Part shown: positions 16,584 through 57,825 of the stretch, one piece after another
Layout: the number at the start of each line of letters is the position of its first letter
Position numbering within the stretch: the stretch's first letter is position 1
Origin: Acytostelium subglobosum LB1
Taxonomy: Eukaryota > Evosea > Eumycetozoa > Acytosteliales > Acytosteliaceae
NCBI RefSeq assembly: GCF_000787575.1
Contig: NW_012236507.1
Coordinates: 6,253 to 70,252 of the forward strand
Direction of reading: 5' to 3'
DNA: 64,000 bases
The notes under the pieces: model-generated
Told to the model about the DNA's origin: nothing
The model's input: only the letters and a program-made list of their open reading frames with translations
The model's database searches: none
Made by a program: the position numbers and the translations under genes

Positions 16584-19500
16584 ATGAGTCCAGTGCCTTC
16601 CCAACCTTTGGTAGACTTCCAAGATGAGCAGTTGAATACAACTAGAAATGGTATGGATATTTGGATTGCCAATGTATCCTTTGAATGGTCACAGTGTCAC
16701 TAACAAAATACAATACACTCGAATCATAACAACAGAGATTCTTGATTTGATTGACAAATCAAAGGTCCACTATGATAGCCAATTTATTGGAGGTGTCAAG
16801 GCTGTCATCCCAACATACGTGGACTTTGCCTCGTTGTCCAGCTACTCAAAGAGCGACAAGTCCAATGTATTGCGAGGCATCAAGAGCAATATAGCAGGCC
16901 TCATGAAGCAAGTGGCCTCTGCCTTTGATAAAATGGACGCCGTCAACAAGTCCAATGTACAGACTTATATTACAAGGATTGTGATCACCAACGTACCTGG
17001 CAAAGCCTCAACGTCCAAGAAGTCCTCCTTCTCTGCCGATGGAACTCTAGAAGTTGGTACCATATTTGAGGACGCCATCAACTGTTCCTACTATGTTGAG
17101 AAGAAGATCATCACTGCTCTCAACGAGTTCCGTCCGTCACAAGGCGCAGTTGTGCCTGATAAAGTGGCCGCTTTTGAGCCAGCTCCAACTTCAGAACCTT
17201 CCCCTGCAATTGCTGCCGCCATTTCAGCTCCACCTCCAGTCTCTGCCAGCGGTCTTGATCTTTCACAACCCACATATCCTGTTGCTGCCCAAGAGACACT
17301 CAAGCTTGAGATTCTGAGCATCCTCAAGCCAGTCCGCATTGAGTCAGTGGTGCTAGGAAAGCCAGCATTTGAGATGCCAATCTATGTTGATTGGGCAAGT
17401 ATGTCCCTCAGTCCAGATGTCACGAGTGTCCTGCGTTCCGTCAAGACCAACATTCCCAACATTGTCAAGCAGATCGTGCCATCACTCACCAAGGTGGATG
17501 AGGTCAGAAAGGCAGCCGTGGGTGACTACCTTGTGTCAATGGTAGTCCAGAACGTACCTGGTAAAGCCTCAACGTCCAAGAAAGCTTGTCTTACCCACGA
17601 GGGCATGCTTATCATCACCCTGCCACTGGAGGACTCGCTCAACTGTTCCTATTACCTCGACAAGAAGATAACAACTGCACTCAATGAGTTTATTCCTCAG
17701 AGTGGATACCAACCACAGGAGAAGTTCATTTCTCCACCAGTTGCAGTAGTCGCACCAGCGGTCGTTCAAGCTGTCGCTCAGCCAGTAATCCAACAACAAA
17801 GACCACCAGTAGTTTATCAACAACAACCACCAGCAGTTGTATATCAACAACAACCAGTACAACAACCAAAGCCAGTGGCTGTCGCACCACCAGCACCAGT
17901 TCCCGTACCTATTGCTGAGCCAAAGGAGAAGGGTCGTCCAGAGATGGAGTACAAGCCAACATTCAGTGATCCAGCTCAACAATTCCTTGTCCGAGAGATT
18001 GACCAATTCCTCAACCACTTCAAGCTTGTCGATGACAAGGACGTTCCAATTGGTGCACCCATCTATCTGGATTGGGCTTCAATCATGGTCTACCCCACGG
18101 CAGTGAAGCAGAGCACAGTTCTTCGCAATGTCAACCTGACTCTCTACCGAATGTTGAGAGAGACAGTCAATGCCGTCAAGCTGTCCTGTACTGATTTCGC
18201 CATGGGAGGAACTATTCGTGCCTACCTGCGCTCAATGACCTTCCAGAACATTCAAGGTGTATCCACAACTGCAAAGAAAGTTCTCTATGAAGATGGACAC
18301 CTCATCATTCAGACAGTCTTTGAGGACCTTGGAAACTGTGCCATGTACTTTGACTCCAAGGTTATACAGGCGTTCCCAGCTCGCCCATCAACACCCACTC
18401 CAAAGAAGCCAGAGCAAGCGCAACTCATCAGAGAGGAACTGGACATCCGTCTGCTTGCCCACCGTGATGTCACCGCCCAGGAGGGTGGTCACTTGTTGGT
18501 GCCACCCTGTCCAGTCACAATGGATTGGTCATTCCAGACCAACAAGGCATACGAGTCTGCAGGTATTGAGCCCAATCTCATTGGCACCAGCAATCCAATA
18601 ATGACCGATCTCTTGGGTGCCCTCTCCACGTTCAATAGCAAGGAGGTGGAGATATTGAGACGCGAGATCACAAAGATTGTGTTTGTCCAAGCGGCACCTG
18701 GCAAGACAATGTTTGAGAAACGTAGCGTTGTCATGGCAGACGATGGTACTCTCAACATCATCTCTATATTCGAGGACCGTACCGAGGGTGGCAAGGGATT
18801 CCGTGATCGCTTCATCAACAGCTTCAAGGCTCGTCTCTACAAGGTACAGATCAGAGACACCATCATCCCTGCCATTGCCAAGTCAATCGACGAGTCTGTG
18901 CGCTCTCGTGTCAAGGATAACTACCTGGACAAGATTGTCGTGCCCTCCGATGCCAGCTACCAGGCCAACGTCGTCTTTAATTGGACGATCATTGAGAAGG
19001 AGTCACCAGAGAGTCAGGTCAACACATACCGTGCCGTCACTGAGAAGCTTGGAGTTGGTCACGGCTTTGCCGAGGAGCTTCGCAAAGCCATCTGTGATAT
19101 ATGTTCCTATGATGTTGGCAAGAGTGCATTCCTAGCAACCAATCGATTCGTCCTCACCAACATCATGAACGCCAAACAGGAGACCAACAAGTTCTCATGT
19201 GGCAACACATGGGAGTTGACCGCCACCTTCCATGATCCAGCCAACAATCGCAACACTTCGTCTTCGATGAATGTCTACTTCAAGGAGCAACTCAAGGTGG
19301 CCTTCCCCTGTGCCATCCAAGATACATTCCCACAGATCGCCTCGTTGGTTGATGAACTTGCCAGTGCCACATCAAAGAAGGTCCCAGTGGTTATGAACTA
19401 CGATTCATGGAGAACGTATGCCAGGTTCACCAATGATCAGTTTGCCTACAAGTCCATCAAGTCTATCGCGGTCACCGTTCCAGGCTCTGGTCTGAGGTGT

Positions 19501-21276
19501 GTTACCACTCTATGTAGAGATGCTATCGTCAAGAAGGAGTACTGCACCAAGGTCAACTCAATCAACATTGAGTATGATGTGACTGATCAAGTGAAGAAAC
19601 AGAGAAACAAGGATCCAAACGTCGTGGCCACTCTCGACAGTAAGACTGGATGCCTTACCTTCAAGCTAAACTTTGTCGATGGTCTGCTTGGAGAGAAGAT
19701 GCCATCATGGGACTACCAGTTTGAGTTGGCATTGGGTACCCGTCCACTCAAGATTGCCCGCTCAATGGAGAACAACAAGGCAGAGTTGAGTGCAGTCTCG
19801 AGCGAGATTACCTCTCTCATTGGCAAGACTGTGCAGGTCAGCGTCAACTACAAGTCCTTCATTGATCACCGCAACTTTTTGCACGAGCTTGAGGAGCCTG
19901 TCTACACCAAGATCATTGCTTCATTTGCTCAGTGGCTAAGAGCTGGTTGGGTCAAGCACGACCAGACCGCCGAACTCACCACCTACGCCACAGTCAAGGA
20001 GTCACTGCAACGCCAGCTTACCTCCATCCAGTTCCATCTGTGCTGTGAGAACAACCAAAGAGAGGTCTACGACTTTGAACTCAAGGGCACCGAACTCAAT
20101 GTCTCTATCAACCTGTCTGGTGCTATCGATGGCAAGACCATGCCATGGCGCATCACTCTGGAGGGCATATTCAAGTTGCGCAATCTCAAGATCAAGGAGG
20201 AGATTGCCAAGAGAATCGACCTATCAAAGAACAAGGCACTGATCTCCAAGATGGTTGGCAAGAATATCGAGCTGGTGATCGACTGGGCCTCGCTCGAGTC
20301 CGACTCGGCCTTCTCCACCAACGTCGATGACTACATCACCTACATGCATCGCTTTGCCGAGGAGATCCCATCTCGCTTCCCCACTCAGTATGGTTTTGGC
20401 GAGTTGGTCGAGTACCAAGAGGTGCAGCAGACCATTCAGACACAGGTGGACACAATGAAGATCGTCGCCACGTCCAGTGGTTTGGTGGCCGACTTGGTTG
20501 GACGCACATTGGAGATCCACGTTGGTGTGCGCAACATCAACAAGTTCCTCAAAGACACTGCCGATGACTTTGAGTGTTATGGTCGCGAGGTTGAGAACGC
20601 TCTCGGTCTCCGTCTGCAGATCGTTCGTGGCTACATCAAGCGTAACGAACCAAAGTTCCTCCAAGAGACTATTAGACGTCTGACCGATGCCGTGGAGAAC
20701 GTGGTCCGTGTCGAGATTGACTGGGAGTCGATCATCCAACATGCTGGCTTCCTCAAGTACGTTGACTTCAAGCCAGTGTTGGCCAACATTCTCAAGTTGC
20801 CCGCACAACTCCATCCAGTGCAACAGTTGTGCCGTGAGAACCTTGCCGCCAAGAAGGCACTGTCCATCGTACCCACCTACACTTTCAGAGTGGACGGCAC
20901 CAACTCTGTCAACGAATCAGAGTTCTGTGAGAACAAGTTTGGAGTGGACTGGGTGCGAGCATCCTACTTCAAGCCACCTGCAAAGGACCACATCCTGATC
21001 ACCGTCAATGTCGGTCGTATGATCATGGAGCCATGTGACCTCGAGTTGGAGGACAAGATTGAGTTCCTCGTGACACCTGACCTGGCAGAGGAGCGTTACC
21101 TGAAGAAGTTGGCACGTAAGGATCGTGAGGATGACCTCGCCTATCGTCGTAAGCAATCAGCTCGTGAGGATGCCTATCATCAAGAGCAAATGAGAATGGA
21201 TCAGCGAATGCTCGACTCGTCCAATCAACGTAACAGAGAGCTCTCACAGTTGAATCGCAAGCTAAGCCGTTGGTAA
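16584..21276 (+). CDS. Large protein of about nine diverged ~140-aa repeats, unknown family
   Basis: Exon 1 (16584-16650) and exon 2 (16736-21276) join across an 85-nt intron to encode 1,535 residues. I do not recognise the family. The body is a series of about nine related modules of 130-155 residues. Each has a helical start, a strand motif of the form hydrophobic-x-hydrophobic-[DN]-[WYF] (TYVDFAS, IYVDWAS, IYLDWAS, VTMDWSF, VVFNWTI, VVMNYDSW, VSVNYKSF, LVIDWASL, VEIDWESI), a middle helix region and a closing strand-helix. Modules 1-3 (about residues 23-154, 208-341, 437-571) are most alike and share NVPGKASTSKK-like loops; later ones drift. Linkers after modules 1 and 2 are Pro/Ala- and Gln/Pro-rich. 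The last 60 residues are a charged helix (KKLARKDREDDLAYRRK). No signal peptide or membrane segment is seen. Codon use resembles the neighbours. Confidence 0.85.
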
Positions 21277-42992: not shown

Positions 42993-44720
42993 TTATGTAT
43001 TCTTCTTTACCAATGACTGGAGGACACCTTTGATCTTAGTCTTGGGTGTTCTTTTCAATAATGGAAGTATCTTGTACACAATGGTCTCCACTCCAATCTC
43101 CTTGTACACACAAAGGACATTGCGATCATCCAACATTCGATAGTCAACAACTTGATCAAAGCATTGCATGTTGACCTTTACACGAGTGTGCAATCGATAG
43201 TGTTTGACAGTAGTTGACTTCAGCAGTCCTATTGAGCTCTTGATAAGACGTTGTTGAACTGCCTTTGCACCACCTTTGGGCATCACAACCCGGCTGGTCG
43301 CATAATCTGGACACGAGTAGTCAGCAGAGGCATAGATTGTCAATCGTTGTATAGTAGATGATGACACATGACGTGACATTGAATCAAAAGTGAATGATGC
43401 TTTGTTTCCAACATCTATAAATCTAAACTCAATTGACTCTATGGATGACGGTAACTGTTGAAGATAGATCAACTGTGATAGGTCTTCGATTTGTAGTGAC
43501 TGTAGTTTGCTTGGAAAGACAACAGATGAATGGTACTCTTTGCCAAGTGATAGTGATGTGAGTGACTTGGGCAGTACATCCTTAGTCAATGGCTGGTTGT
43601 AGTTCGATCCAAACGATAGGATGGCCAAAGTGTTTGGTAGACATCCCAATGTGATTGGTTTGGAGTACCATCGTCCAAAGATTAACTTGGTTAGTGATCC
43701 ATTATTGAGTAGATCGGGCATGAGAGTTTGATTGAAGAAGTATCCAAGTTGAAGGTCAGTGAGTGATCGAGGGAGTTTACCTTTAGTAATCTGCTGTTTG
43801 AAGTAGTCTCCGAGTTTGAGTGTCGTGATCGAATCCGGAAGATTACAAAGTGGTCGATTATATAGAGTACTAAACTCAAGCTCCTGAAGTGAACTTGGTA
43901 GTCCACCTGCCAAGATAACCTCGTTATAGTTGGTTCCAAACTTCAACTTTCTAAGTGATAATGGTAGCATTCCAGGTAATAACTGCTGTCTGAATATTGA
44001 TCCAAGCTCCAGAGTGACTAGTGAGTCAGGTAGCGTGCCTGGCTCCCAACTCTTATTGAACTTATATCCAAAGGTCAGATGTGTGAGTGATCGTGGCAGT
44101 GAACCTGGCACTAGTTGTTGATCGAAGCCATATCCGAATGATAGTTTGGTTACTGAATCAGGTATCACACCAGGATGGATACATTCATCGAATCGACCAA
44201 GTATACATAATGTCTTTAGTGATTGAGGTAGAGAACCTGGTGAGAAAATATGATCATACTCCAATCCCAAGGTCAATGATGTTATTTTTGAAGGTAGACA
44301 TCCAGGGTCCAACTGATGATTGAATGATTTGCCAAAGATGAGTGATAAGAGGGATGGAGGCAGCTGACCAGGTTCAATGGTGTGATCGAAACCATCTGAG
44401 AGTGTCAAGTGTAGTAAACTGTTTGGTAGTTTACCAGGTTTGATTGGCTTTGAGAACAGGTGAGTATAGGTCAATGAGGTTGCTGATGGAGGACACCCTT
44501 CATCATTGCCAGGTATCCACGTTATAGTGCTCCTGGGTGTTGATGTTATTGTATATCCTGTGGTTCCCTCTGGTTGTAGAATCCAATGAGAAATGCTTTG
44601 AAATACTCTATTGAGTCTCTTGTTTGTAAGACTTAGTGATAATATATCTAAGTATGCATCTCCAAGTCTCCAAAGGCACTTGTATATGTATTTCAACATA
44701 TAATCACTTATTTGTTCCAT
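42993..44720 (-). CDS. FNIP-repeat protein
   Basis: A single exon of 575 residues. The first 50 residues (YKCLWRLGDAYLDILSLSLTNK) look like a short F-box-like helix region, usual for this family. Residues about 85-420 are some 16 FNIP-type repeats of 21-22 residues with the pattern L-x-L-G-x2-[FY]-[ND]-x2-[LI]-x-P-G-x-[LI]-P-x-S, for example LTFGYKFNKSWEPGTLP and LKFGTNYNEVILAGGLP. The C-terminal part is non-repetitive. FNIP repeats are leucine-rich-repeat-like and strongly expanded in dictyostelids; individual roles are mostly unknown, and pairing with F-boxes suggests ubiquitin-ligase adaptors. The frame is intact. A decayed copy of its 3' end lies at 42061-42155. Confidence 0.93.
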   Translation of the reverse strand: MEQISDYMLKYIYKCLWRLGDAYLDILSLSLTNKRLNRVFQSISHWILQPEGTTGYTITSTPRSTITWIPGNDEGCPPSATSLTYTHLFSKPIKPGKLPNSLLHLTLSDGFDHTIEPGQLPPSLLSLIFGKSFNHQLDPGCLPSKITSLTLGLEYDHIFSPGSLPQSLKTLCILGRFDECIHPGVIPDSVTKLSFGYGFDQQLVPGSLPRSLTHLTFGYKFNKSWEPGTLPDSLVTLELGSIFRQQLLPGMLPLSLRKLKFGTNYNEVILAGGLPSSLQELEFSTLYNRPLCNLPDSITTLKLGDYFKQQITKGKLPRSLTDLQLGYFFNQTLMPDLLNNGSLTKLIFGRWYSKPITLGCLPNTLAILSFGSNYNQPLTKDVLPKSLTSLSLGKEYHSSVVFPSKLQSLQIEDLSQLIYLQQLPSSIESIEFRFIDVGNKASFTFDSMSRHVSSSTIQRLTIYASADYSCPDYATSRVVMPKGGAKAVQQRLIKSSIGLLKSTTVKHYRLHTRVKVNMQCFDQVVDYRMLDDRNVLCVYKEIGVETIVYKILPLLKRTPKTKIKGVLQSLVKKNT

Positions 44721-50605: not shown

Positions 50606-53076
50606 TTACTTAAATAATGTCCAATATCGTCGACGTTTATCCAATCTCTCCTTTTGATTGACTAGATAGTTGGTGATGTGATGATGGATGGTCTCTTTGG
50701 CCAACTCGATGAAGGCCAGTAGGTTGGTGAATGGCTTTGGCGAGCTCTCCAATATATGTCTGACCACTACCATGTATCCATTCTTTATGGCCAACTCCAT
50801 CTCTTTCTCACCATACTGAGGATTGTGACTGTTTAGGAAGATGTACACTGATAGTCGCTCGTGTTGCAAAGCCGTCAGACGGTGTGTCTCTGTAAAGTGC
50901 TTGGGTTGTGCAATGTACTTGATCATACCAATGTCACCATTCTTGCACAGTCTCTGGAAGGTCTTGTCCGGCACCACCAGTGAACCCAGAGATAGACGAT
51001 GTTTACTCATAAACACCTGAAGGATATCAAGATGTCCATAGTAGATCAGACTGTTGGCACATGAATCAATGTTTGATGTGTTACTGTCCACGGGTATCAC
51101 TCTAACAAGGTAGTTTAGGATGTCTGTCTTTCCATGCTGACTGGCCACACCCACCAGAGTGGAGTAACTTATTGACTGTTTGTTGATGGTACTGCGATAC
51201 AAATAGTCAAATGTATCAAGGTGACCAGATGTAATTGCACTGATCATCACATCAGTGCTAATAATCTCATGTGATGAGTTGTCTCCATTGTTCCTTGCAT
51301 ATTCTAATACATATTGAGTGATTACCAAGTCCTTCTTTGCAGCAGCGATCAATGCCTTTTGATAATGATGTTGCTTATCAAATGTCTCACATATAAACTT
51401 GACAATATCAATATGACCACCTTCACATGCCTTGATCAATGTAAGTTTAGAGCATACAGCTGATTGTTTCTTTGATAGGTACTCTACAATCTCAAGGTGC
51501 CCATTCTATTGTAAATTTGAGTTAGTAAGTGAGCCAACAACTTGGTATCAAGATATAACATACCAAACATGAACTCTCCAATGCAAATGATGTGTAGCCT
51601 TCGTTCCTATTCATATCAAGGTACTTTACAACATCCAAATGTCCATTTGATCTATAAATAACATGTTGATTAATATATTAAGGTCTTTGTCCAATACCAT
51701 TATTATACATACGCTGCAAAGTCTATCGCTCTATTTGATCCACCCTCTGACCTACATTGACTTAGGAACTTTACAACATTCAAATGTCCATGGTACCTAT
51801 GATTGAGCAAGTATTAATATCTATCAATCAATCATACAGTCATTCAATCTAGAGGGAGGGATACTTACGCACTACCATTCAATGCTTGTTTGCTTGCACC
51901 TTCACTTCTGTTTGAATGTAGGAATTGTACAATATCCAAATGACCATATGTTGCTGCATTGTCCATGGCTTCAAAGGTTGTACCATCATAGTTTTGTGAA
52001 TGTAGGAAGCTGACGAGATCAAGATCACCGACTTTACACGCGAGGTTCAGAGCATTGGACCTTAGACGACTGTTGATGAATGAGTTGATGTACTTTACAA
52101 TGTAGAAATGACCTTTAGTTGCAGCTCGCTCCAGTGCATAGAAGTAGTTGGCCTGTGTGAACTCGGGATTGCCAATGGCAATATGGACTGATATGTAGTT
52201 GAGTACATGTAGATGTCCGTTGATGGCAGCATGTAGGAATGCCATGAATCCAGCTGGTTCAGTCCTATTCTCCCATAGATATTGTACAATTTCCAAATGG
52301 CCGTTGGCACATGCATTGTTTATGGCATCTAGACTACATCCTTCTGTTCGGTTCAAGTGCAGGAACTTGACCACATCCAAGTGACCATTGGCACAAGCCA
52401 TATGCATTGCCAACTGAGTACATCCTTCGGTCCTATTCAGATGTAAGTACTCCAGGATGTTCAAGTGACCATACTCTGCAGCCAGATCCATGGCACCAAC
52501 AGTACATCCTTCATCACGATACTCGTTGATCCATTCGACCACCTCCAAGTGTCCGTTCTTTGCAGCAAGATCCATGGCATTACTAGTACATCCCTCGGTA
52601 CGATTGTCAGATAGGAATGTGACCAGTTTAAGATGACCACCTTCAGCGGCACTATCCAAACTTGACATGGTGAAGATATCATTGCATTGTGGAATGGAGA
52701 AGAATGAGTGTATGATGTCCAGTCGACCCAGTCGACACAGTTGATCAATGTGACGTGGTATCCAACCAAGTAAAGGACGTTCACATCGTAGCTTGTCCTT
52801 TATAAGTTCAATGTGATTGTTCTCTATAATCCAATCGACACTTATAATAGTATTGTATCGCTTGTGTACACGTCTACATTGACATCGATGTACAAAGTGG
52901 AACACACGATGTCTGACTACCACATTCATTATCAATCGTTTGAACAGTCTGTCAAACTCTGTTGTTGGTTGGATATCATTGTTATAGTCTAGAAGATTGA
53001 AATTGAAATGTGGTCTGTCCAATGGTGTAACTATTATCTTATCACAATAGAGTGTCTCTGTGATTGTTGATGCCAT
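50606..53076 (-). CDS. Ankyrin-repeat protein
   Basis: Five-part model with four coding exons: 53076-51869, 51796-51713, 51651-51564 and 51505-50606, in total 759 residues. The N-terminus contains a conserved-type block (IISVDWIIENNHIELIKDKL). From about residue 120 the protein is a run of ankyrin-like repeats with the dictyostelid pattern NGHLDVVKFLHLNRTEGC and ATYGHLDIVQFLHSNRSEG, continuing through the two tiny exons (YHGHLNVVKFLSQCRSEGG, SNGHLDVVKYLDMNRNEG) and into the last exon (GGHIDIVKFICETFD). Introns fall inside repeats in phases 2, 2 and 0. Proteins of this family are very numerous in dictyostelids and mostly of unknown function. Its stop lies only 13 bp from the stop of the mL44-like gene. 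Confidence 0.87.
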
Positions 53077-55991: not shown

Positions 55992-57825
55992 ATGTTAATA
56001 TTACTTCCTATTTGGGTATTAAGAAACATTGTTTCATACCTTGACTGTATCGACATTGTTTGCTTTGTCATGTCTTGCAAGATCATCTATGTGTTGCAAA
56101 AGAGCATAGCTCCATCTTTAAAGCATAACATATATGCACTTCACTATCCAACCAATGCCACCACTCATCTAAAGAAGTTGAGATCGTTTAATAATCTAAC
56201 CACGATGCACAGATGTTATAATAGACTCTATCCCGACTCTTTGCGACTCACAATTGACTCTGGTCATATTCAAATACCTTCATCAATCACAAGCCTGGAT
56301 TTGCATCTTGATATCGATCTTCCAGTTGGACTCATTCCACAATCGGTGACCCAATTAACCATTGACAGTCTAAACCAACCTCTTCAAGTTGGACACATTC
56401 CACAATCTGTGACCCATTTATCATTGACAGTCTAAACCAACCACTTCAAATTGGACACATTCCGCAATGCGTATCACAACTGTCAATGCCTCTATTCAAT
56501 CAACCACTTCAAGTTGGACACTTTCCAGAATCAGTAACCCATTTATCCTTGGAGCGTTTTAATCGACCTCTTCAAGTTGGACTTTTTCCACAATCAGCCA
56601 TACAACTTTCATTGTCAACATCACATAAGAATCAACCTCTTCAAGTTGGGCTGATACCACCATCAGTGAAACAACTATCATTGACACGTATGAATCAACC
56701 TCTTCAAGTTGGACACATTCCACAATCAGTGGAGCAACTATCATTGACACGTATGAATCAACCTCTTCAAGTTGGACACATCCCACAATCAGTCACCCAA
56801 TTAACATTGCCAAGTTTCAATCAACCACTTGATGCTGGGCACATTCCACGATCAGTGACAAATTAACCATTGACCGGTTCAACAAACCTCTACAAATTGG
56901 ATATATTCCACTATCAGTGACTCATTTGTCAATGCAAGATTTCAATCAACCTCTTCAAATAGGTCACATACCTCAATCTGTTACCAATTTATCATTTCAT
57001 CAGTTCAATCAACCTCTTCAATCTGGACATATTCCAATATCAGTAACTCTTCTGTCATTGTTTCAGTTCGATCAACCTCTTCAAATTGGACATATTCCAC
57101 AATCAGTGATATATCTGACACTTATATTTTTCAATCAACCACTTCAAGCTGGACATATTCCACCATCAGTGACACATCTGAAACTGTCAGGGGTCAATCT
57201 ACCTCTTCAATATGGGCACATTCCACAATCAGTTGTTGAACTATCTTTAAATAATTTCGATCAACCTCTTCAAGTTGGTTCCATCCCACGACTTGTAAGG
57301 CGATTGTCTTTTGGATTTAACTTTAATCAATACCTCAAAATGGAATACATTCCATCCGTCACGTCACTATCTATTCCTAACAGTCAATTCTCCCAAGATA
57401 ACTTTGGACTCTTGGATCACAATTATCTCCAAGAACTCACCATCTCTCATGAGATCAGCAGACCCGGACAGCCTCCTCTCTCACCAACTCAATTCTATTT
57501 AGATGTGGACAGGACAAGTAACCCAGCCTCCAAAGGACCTTCTCATCTCATCATTCAAGTCCGTGTCAATCGTACCCGTGAAAATATGTATGAAGGTATT
57601 CCACGCTCTTTCTTGAGTATTCAGCTCAAACAATTACTCTCAAACGCTACCAATGTGACCAGCACTTCTTTGATTTCACGACAGTCTGGAGGTTACTTGA
57701 CAATGAAACTGCATTATGTATACCAGTGGCCGATAGCTATGGTGATGGAGTCATGTCACTTTGGAGGATTAAGGGTAATACGCTCCAAAGACCATTACTT
57801 ATATAAATATATTGGGTTGTTATAA
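55992..57825 (+). pseudogene. FNIP-repeat gene with broken reading frame
   Basis: The region reads as an FNIP-repeat protein of about 600 residues in three successive frames (55992-56435, then about 56440-56866, then about 56850-57825). The start MLILLPIWVLRNIVSYLDCI is an F-box-like helix. The repeats are very uniform, close to FNQPLQVGHIPQSVTHLSL, 22 residues (66 nt) each, with at least 18 copies. Both breaks fall inside repeats: near 56430 (after the second THLSL unit) and near 56860 (at SVTN). The repeats continue without loss across the shifts, so the damage is small and recent, or reflects assembly errors in a repetitive tract. The non-repetitive C-terminal region ends at the stop at 57825. 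It is convergent with the DUF3605 gene at 94 bp. Confidence 0.7.

Follow-up and report, generated by a model that had tools for sequence, protein, structure and literature searches.

A gene on the forward strand of a 64,000-nucleotide stretch of the genome of the amoeba Acytostelium subglobosum LB1 (contig NW_012236507.1, positions 6,253 to 70,252; hereafter the window) encodes a protein of 1,535 residues (Table 1). Taken as a whole, the gene is best explained, and we think likely, as encoding a single alpha/beta domain repeated nine times, which would form a multivalent array. Profile comparisons indicate that the nine modules are almost certainly homologous to a small domain of bacteria and haloarchaea, so far annotated, in the members we have seen, only as 'hypothetical protein', for which a definition, an alignment and a predicted structure are now given. 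The amoeba protein is thus probably an enlarged form of an old building block that is still uncharacterised. The original prediction, made from the letters of the window alone, had noticed the repeats and read them as a possible new domain; the observation itself is confirmed and its interpretation is supported in part, as set out below.

Nine modules and their prokaryotic relatives

The modules are each about 130-150 residues long, and all nine strand motifs from which they had been proposed are present in the protein. The pattern [VILMF][DN][WYF] occurs 12 times, against a mean of 3.8 and a maximum of 11 in 1,000 shuffles, and taken alone it is only moderately beyond chance; none of the three extra sites (residues 1007, 1372 and 1433, numbered on the unspliced frame) marks the start of a module. 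Loops resembling NVPGKASTSKK had been ascribed to modules 1-3: this holds exactly for modules 1 and 2, while module 3 has an altered form (NIQGVSTTAKK) and module 4 also holds an altered loop, AAPGKTMFEKR. Pro-rich linkers are found only between modules 1, 2 and 3, and modules 3 to 9 abut with little or no linker.

The modules had been described as drifting steadily toward the C-terminus. Pairwise Smith-Waterman z-scores instead show two groups. Within modules 1-4 the scores are 49.5 (M1-M2), 30.8 (M2-M3), 22.6 (M1-M3), 11.4 (M1-M4), 7.6 (M3-M4) and 2.9 (M2-M4), and within modules 6-9 they are 8.3 (M7-M9), 7.5 (M7-M8), 4.7 (M6-M7), 4.5 (M6-M9), 2.0 (M8-M9) and 0.5 (M6-M8). No pair between these groups has a z-score above 2.3, and module 5 has no strong pair (best M5-M8, z 3.6). 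A description that suits these scores better has modules 1-4 in one group and, less firmly linked, modules 6-9 in another, with module 5 between them. That the repeating domain is real is borne out by a leave-one-out profile test, drawn from a joint alignment of the nine modules and 79 prokaryotic domains (88 rows), in which all nine modules outscore all 1,000 shuffles of themselves (Table 1). With the prokaryotic rows only, eight of the nine beat all shuffles; module 4 does not, its score being matched by 4 of 1,000. The columns of this second test come from an alignment that includes the modules, and the independent test is the 71-segment bacterial profile described below.

The prokaryotic family was reached only by way of a motif. 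Modules 5 (ICSYDVGKSA) and 6 (LCRDAIVKKE) resemble the string IC-x-DD-x-GKEA, which we take to be a motif of hypothetical proteins in bacteria. When prokaryotic genomes were scanned with a degenerate DNA pattern of this string, 37 stretches matched, where fewer than one would be expected by chance (our rough estimate, for even base composition). On translation the domain is present in 36 of the 37 loci, mostly in unnamed proteins of about 130 residues; the other locus (L017) is a chance motif match and is left out of all family counts. Alignment A4 has 33 of 36 rows, without L003, L011 and L018, whose ends are ambiguous or shortened; alignments A5 and A6 contain 79 of 80 segments, without L018.

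On a profile of the 36 sequences the window protein reaches 66.7 bits, in eight matches (best of 1,000 shuffles 5.9), and on a bacteria-only profile built from 71 segments it reaches 84.5 bits, in nine matches, one per module (best of 1,000 shuffles 6.8). None of the remaining frames of the window matches (next best expectation value, E, 4.1). In profile-profile comparison the bacterial family matches modules 1-4 with P 8.7e-7 and modules 6-9 with P 9.2e-7 (probability 91% in each case), while the two halves compared directly reach P 7.1e-4 (26%). Because the halves match the bacterial family better than they match each other, the bacterial family forms the bridge between them. The repeats and the bacterial match might instead be a chance likeness of short helix-strand patterns without homology. 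Single matches are weak, at most 15.7 bits on the bacteria-only profile with two of the nine (modules 3 and 4) at 2.0 and -1.1, and the motif by itself is of the moderate significance given above. Against this stand nine ordered matches at 84.5 bits, where 1,000 shuffles reach at most 6.8, together with the pairwise and profile-profile support and a confident fold predicted from the joint alignment, and we regard a chance origin of the likeness as extremely improbable.

By profile score, then, stand-alone proteins of about 130 residues such as WP_004061049.1 of Haloferax mediterranei (annotated as 'hypothetical protein') have the same domain as the amoeba modules. Both share the [DN][WYF] strand, the subsequent helix and the hinge and hairpin regions. 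The stand-alone proteins have a single domain, mostly start with MGLxExR and carry the hinge CxDDxGKEA, whereas the amoeba protein strings nine copies together, with linkers and a charged tail, mostly lacks the hinge, and has the MGLxExR N-terminus in none of its nine modules.

Predicted fold and comparison with known families

Structure prediction of module 2 with the 88-row alignment gave a model with a mean predicted local distance difference test score (pLDDT) of 89.7 and a predicted template modelling score (pTM) of 0.82. Its elements follow in the order helix, short strand, short helix, VDW strand, short helix, long helix, helix, three strands, helix. The model of module 8 (pLDDT 80.1, pTM 0.72) has the same core order. 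Of the common fold anticipated by the original prediction, a shared predicted order of elements is seen in one early and one late module, with two of nine modules modelled, and this is an observation on these two amoeba modules only. The alignments prepared for a two-module prediction were discarded; the first stretched to 886 columns and the second piled single-domain rows onto module 7.

Foldseek searches of the PDB gave no match at E <= 0.001 (best 0.11 for module 2 and 0.24 for module 8), and a search of predicted viral structures with module 2 gave a best E of 0.083. On these models it is possible that the fold is absent among solved structures. The names that recur among the weak matches suggest another reading, in which the modules would be related, in degenerate form, to zincin-type (HExxH) metallopeptidases or to another enzyme fold, and the array would consist of inactivated or substrate-binding enzyme domains. 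The top rows for module 2 include Wss1, BACCAC_01431, PPEP-3 and a snapalysin complex, those for module 8 include M61, aminopeptidase N and astacin, and those from the viral library IrrE, M34, SprT and M61. However, none of these is better than E 0.08 or exceeds a TM-score of 0.41 (best 50 rows per list), HExxH occurs in none of the 88 aligned sequences and nowhere in the whole window protein, and no peptidase family is found among the Pfam or NCBIfam rows for the protein. The resemblance to zincins (Wss1/SprT, M61 and others) is a weak structural one, in modules with neither HExxH nor a sequence match, and this reading seems quite unlikely to us.

The earlier view that the modules belong to no known family is sustained by searches of Pfam-A, NCBIfam, PHROGs, PADLOC-DB and PDB sequences, none of which gave a convincing match; membership was taken as a score above the curated cut-off or, failing one, E below 0.001. 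With the whole protein, nothing in Pfam-A lies above cut-off (best DUF3014, E 0.039), no NCBIfam family is matched and no PDB sequence matches. For the nine modules the best E values are 0.026 (Pfam), 0.041 (NCBIfam), 0.042 (PHROGs) and 0.017 (PADLOC), each reached by one member, and we treat these and the other single-module matches in the four libraries (E 0.017-0.28, one member each) as chance. Among the prokaryotic members, 79 searched against Pfam reach a best E of 0.01, each family being matched by at most two members (best 25 of 46 rows), and three searched against NCBIfam match no family; the prokaryotic profile finds nothing better than E 1.5 among PDB sequences. A search of the open-access literature by accession and locus names, family peptide strings and keywords, with most subscription journals outside its scope, found no paper on the domain. 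The family may already bear a name outside the libraries and literature searched. What is new here is the domain family and perhaps its fold, within the libraries searched, and no new kind of biochemical system is claimed.

Conserved residues, prokaryotic architectures and possible role

Position 38 is aromatic (W, F or Y) in all nine modules, though the motif that includes it defined the modules, and is W in 86% of the 79 prokaryotic rows. The hairpin residues G101 and L103 are each kept in six of nine modules. At the hinge, K73 is kept in five modules, C67 and D69 in four each, E74 and A75 in two each and G72 in one; the full hinge CxDDxGKEA occurs in no module, only fragments of it, the best in module 5. 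In the 36 prokaryotic rows from loci that were not picked by the motif, D69 is present in 26, G72 in 27 and A75 in 27, with K or R at position 73 in 30; C67 is present in 15 of these rows, D70 in 10 and E74 in 11. The retention of D69, G72 and A75 in rows chosen independently of the motif suggests that part of the hinge matters in bacteria.

These residues bear on whether the bacterial module could be an active enzyme, with CxDDxGKEA as a catalytic or ligand site, and whether some amoeba modules such as module 5 could still be active. Neither W38 nor any of the hinge residues varies across the 33 rows of the canonical set, part of the hinge persists in the other 36 rows as just described, and module 5 reads ICSYDVGKSA. 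The invariance of the hinge in the 33-row set, however, is built in, because those loci were picked with the hinge motif; C67, D70 and E74 are variable in the other rows, and most of the hinge is gone from most amoeba modules. We therefore consider enzymatic activity improbable.

In seven of the 36 loci examined, all from Flavobacteriaceae, there is a gene of one cluster (c2) whose product bears a second, divergent copy of the domain behind an N-terminal domain. This gene is directly adjacent and on the same strand in six (L010, L022, L024, L026, L032 and L037), and in L025 it lies 0.8 kb off on the opposite strand. Further paired neighbours were found in L059, L060, L070 and L082, and in L074 (772-1968) the stand-alone domain and the partner protein are fused in one chain. 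A two-gene pair that is once found fused suggests a heteromeric complex. The N-terminal domain of the partner, aligned from 12 hand-picked rows (A10, excluding a weak candidate from L050, E 0.034), has the pattern LxxGxxIxG, and its best PDB profile match is NAA38 (E 0.14), which we take to be an LSm protein. The domain is possibly Sm-like, a reading with a weak basis and no support from Pfam. The likeness to Sm/LSm-like proteins lies in this bacterial partner domain and none is seen in the window protein. DUF3868 was also matched (E 9.1e-6), by one of the 12 partner sequences only, and was not used. Recurrent neighbours in three to five loci were set aside as plain synteny of relatives, and a neighbour cluster of 11 as antisense frames.

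Several prokaryotic proteins carry more than one copy. A planctomycete protein (L081/L103; L081:226-2778) has four, in a frame of 851 residues with DUF446 (E 1.7e-22); another planctomycete frame of 764 residues (L020:2340-4631) has two clear copies and a marginal third, also with DUF446 (E 4.3e-18). L101/L104, likewise planctomycete, has three copies in a frame of 463 residues, the third in two weak pieces, and L074, L095 and L097 have two each, with two planctomycete frames among these two-copy cases. The copies of L020, L074 and L081 helped to build the 71-segment profile, and those of L095, L097 and L101 did not. The planctomycete arrays with DUF446 (L081 and L020) resemble the amoeba protein in having several copies per chain; they differ in that at most four copies were seen and that DUF446/YqcC (PF04287) lies at one end, whereas the amoeba protein has nine copies and no DUF446/YqcC match in the Pfam search. 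The joining of several copies to DUF446/YqcC is a link that may help to place both domains. The Bacteroidota sample includes a copy fused to DUF6882 (E 3.1e-28), and by eye three copies have apparent signal peptides, in L053 and in both frames of L084. The latter two, from the phylum of a Bdellovibrionales member, lie head to head (L084:492-1010 on the reverse and L084:958-1686 on the forward strand), each with the domain and an apparent signal peptide.

We tentatively suggest that the amoeba protein is a multivalent, non-enzymatic binding scaffold, though we would put this role at somewhat less than an even prospect. Each module, as predicted for modules 2 and 8, would fold as helices, the [DN][WYF] strand, a long helix followed by another helix, three strands and a closing helix, and would bind a partner protein instead of catalysing a reaction. 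In bacteria the partner would probably be the adjacent or fused protein, in which a possibly Sm-like domain is linked to a second domain copy. The amoeba array would then present nine binding beads, with Pro-rich linkers between the first three and little space between the rest, and the charged C-terminal tail might make further contacts. Most amoeba modules keep the residues of the fold while most of the Cys-x-Asp-Asp-x-Gly-Lys-Glu-Ala hinge has been lost, and this loss would be easier to reconcile with a structural role in an array than with nine active sites.

A number of observations weigh against this picture of homologous, non-enzymatic beads. Modules 3 and 4 score weakly on the bacteria-only profile, and the conserved part of the hinge may be important in bacteria. 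The model of module 8 is moderate, and both models rest mostly on the same prokaryotic rows and are not fully independent; given the zinc peptidase names that recur among the weak Foldseek rows, the modules may have a remote enzyme ancestry. Beyond the paired gene, the neighbourhoods of the 36 loci have no common function, and the other recurrent neighbours occur in groups of three to five loci, mostly close relatives, in what was a rough look, the gene caller having taken an antisense frame over the domain gene in about one third of the loci. Relatives were sought in prokaryotic genomes, plasmids, phage records and viral contigs alone. A functional partner, expression, localisation or biochemistry of the domain was not found for any organism. 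The small single-domain proteins of bacteria should be easy to solve and test, and their ligands would point directly to the role of the amoeba array.

Distribution, origin and gene structure

The original prediction had expected relatives only in Amoebozoa, which did not hold. Record titles and phylum-wise searches place the domain, patchily, in seven bacterial phyla and on haloarchaeal plasmids. In phylum-wise samples (E <= 0.001, seed genomes counted in), it was matched in 9 of 198 genomes of the phylum of a planctomycete, 6 of 198 of that of an Aquimarina, 6 of 398 of that of a gammaproteobacterium, 5 of 188 of that of a Polyangium, 4 of 114 of that of a Bdellovibrionales member and 2 of 149 of that of a Solibacter; with the window modules added to the profile, 15 of 392 planctomycete genomes (a sample that overlaps the first) and 3 of 101 genomes from the phylum of an Armatimonadetes member had a match. 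A tblastn search with one flavobacterial member found nine plasmid records. Three come from haloarchaea (Natrinema, Haloferax and haloarchaeon TuA4), and their members are 39% identical to the query over its full length; two of the nine records also matched a second query. No relative was found in viral contigs with one bacterial protein query and the motif, or in phage records with one query, and the window protein itself, searched directly, had no match in viral contigs, plasmids or phages (tblastn for the latter two). On the plasmid pHME505 of Haloferax mediterranei (L085) the member adjoins very large hypothetical genes (>4,000 bases), in which the domain profile has no match within the stretch fetched. 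The hosts are very different organisms (Bacteroidota, planctomycetes, haloarchaea and an amoeba), and the rare and patchy occurrence suggests that the domain gene has moved horizontally.

In a tree of 137 columns and 88 rows, modules 1-4 fall into a single clade (98/92) and module 6 joins module 7 (88/89), a pairing flagged as a possible long-branch join. Modules 5, 8 and 9, on branches of close to four changes per column, have no reliable position. All nine may have come from one module by old tandem duplication, as first proposed, but the tree gives a single clade for modules 1-4 only: the nine modules were monophyletic in 0% of 200 bootstrap trees, which is weak evidence owing to the long branches. 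For the same reason we do not use the placement of these modules on the bacterial tree. Data of this size (137 columns, 88 rows) do not discriminate between the uptake of a single module followed by duplication, the uptake of an array and an older shared origin.

The array may have arisen in prokaryotes, so that an ancestor of the amoeba acquired an already repeated gene, for example a planctomycete array, and not a single-domain gene. Planctomycete arrays of two to four copies exist, modules 1-4 group weakly (88/82) with nine planctomycete rows, most of them array modules, and the window modules are not a single clade. The branches concerned, however, are 2-4 changes per column long, which makes the placement unreliable, and the tree program itself flagged possible long-branch joins and a bootstrap that had not settled. 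Moreover, the GC content at third codon positions of the nine-module gene, 0.589, lies inside the range of nine other window genes (0.373-0.741), so that no recent import is visible. On balance we find the uptake of a ready-made array rather unlikely. The broader proposal, that this is an undescribed family with a fold unrepresented among solved structures, patchy in bacteria and haloarchaea, which entered the amoeba lineage and was amplified there to a nine-bead scaffold, we hold to be nearly an even possibility. The planctomycete and amoeba arrays provide a case of a bacterial-type domain made into long repeats.

The open frame of the original prediction is where it had been placed, and its 1,535 residues are reproduced by splicing out 16651-16735 (Table 1). 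This putative intron reads GTATGG...CTAAC...CAG, and its removal gives exactly 1,535 residues with the sole stop terminal; the unspliced alternative would start at the ATG at 16648 and give 1,542 residues, in a frame that is open over 16636-21276. The spliced N-terminal stretch, DEQLNTTRNEILDLID, looks by eye like that of module 2, AAQETLKLEILSIL. The profile and structure work is based on the unspliced reading, which differs only in the first residues of module 1; module 1 as tested (16702-17127) contains 34 bases of the putative intron.

Table 1. Features of the nine-module gene, in window coordinates; profile scores are in bits, with the best of 1,000 shuffles after 'vs'
Feature	Position	Strand	Remarks
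Nine-module protein gene	16584-21276	+	1,535 residues after splicing out the inferred intron
Exon 1 (inferred)	16584-16650	+	start codon and first 22 residues; splicing gives 1,535 residues
Intron (inferred)	16651-16735	+	85 bases, 65% AT; GT...CTAAC...CAG read by eye
Exon 2	16736-21276	+	remainder of the protein; open frame and splice reading
Module 1	16736-17127	+	first helix split by the inferred intron; bacteria-only profile 15.7; leave-one-out 42.4 vs 7.7
Linker, modules 1 to 2	17128-17259	+	Pro/Ala/Ser-rich; from sequence
Module 2	17260-17703	+	leave-one-out 34.4 vs 5.8; predicted structure pLDDT 89.7, pTM 0.82
Linker, modules 2 to 3	17704-17964	+	Pro/Gln/Val-rich; from sequence
Module 3	17965-18372	+	leave-one-out 22.0 vs 8.5; prokaryote-only 9.9 vs 4.8; 71-segment bacterial profile 2.0
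Module 4 (weakest)	18415-18852	+	leave-one-out 8.0 vs 6.2; prokaryote-only 5.0; 71-segment bacterial profile -1.1
Module 5	18859-19302	+	leave-one-out 18.7 vs 8.9; ICSYDVGKSA, closest to the bacterial hinge motif
Module 6	19300-19737	+	leave-one-out 24.6 vs 5.5
Module 7	19738-20169	+	leave-one-out 27.7 vs 9.5
Module 8	20170-20604	+	leave-one-out 24.1 vs 11.9; structure predicted on 20170-20622, pLDDT 80.1, pTM 0.72
Module 9	20605-21072	+	leave-one-out 16.7 vs 6.4
Charged C-terminal tail, probably helical	21073-21273	+	of the last 77 residues, 41 are E, D, R, K or Q; helical reading based on sequence alone

The surroundings of the gene resemble, judging from the translations, a dictyostelid genome: the window holds what we take to be two FNIP-repeat-like proteins (42993-44720 on the reverse and 56932-57825 on the forward strand) and an ankyrin-like gene (51865-53076, reverse strand), presumably typical of dictyostelids, and a gene that is presumably inositol-trisphosphate-receptor-like. 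At the start of the window, the open frame at 979-1605 on the forward strand is antisense to a repeat-rich gene at 394-1503 on the reverse strand, and its repetitive product is probably not real.

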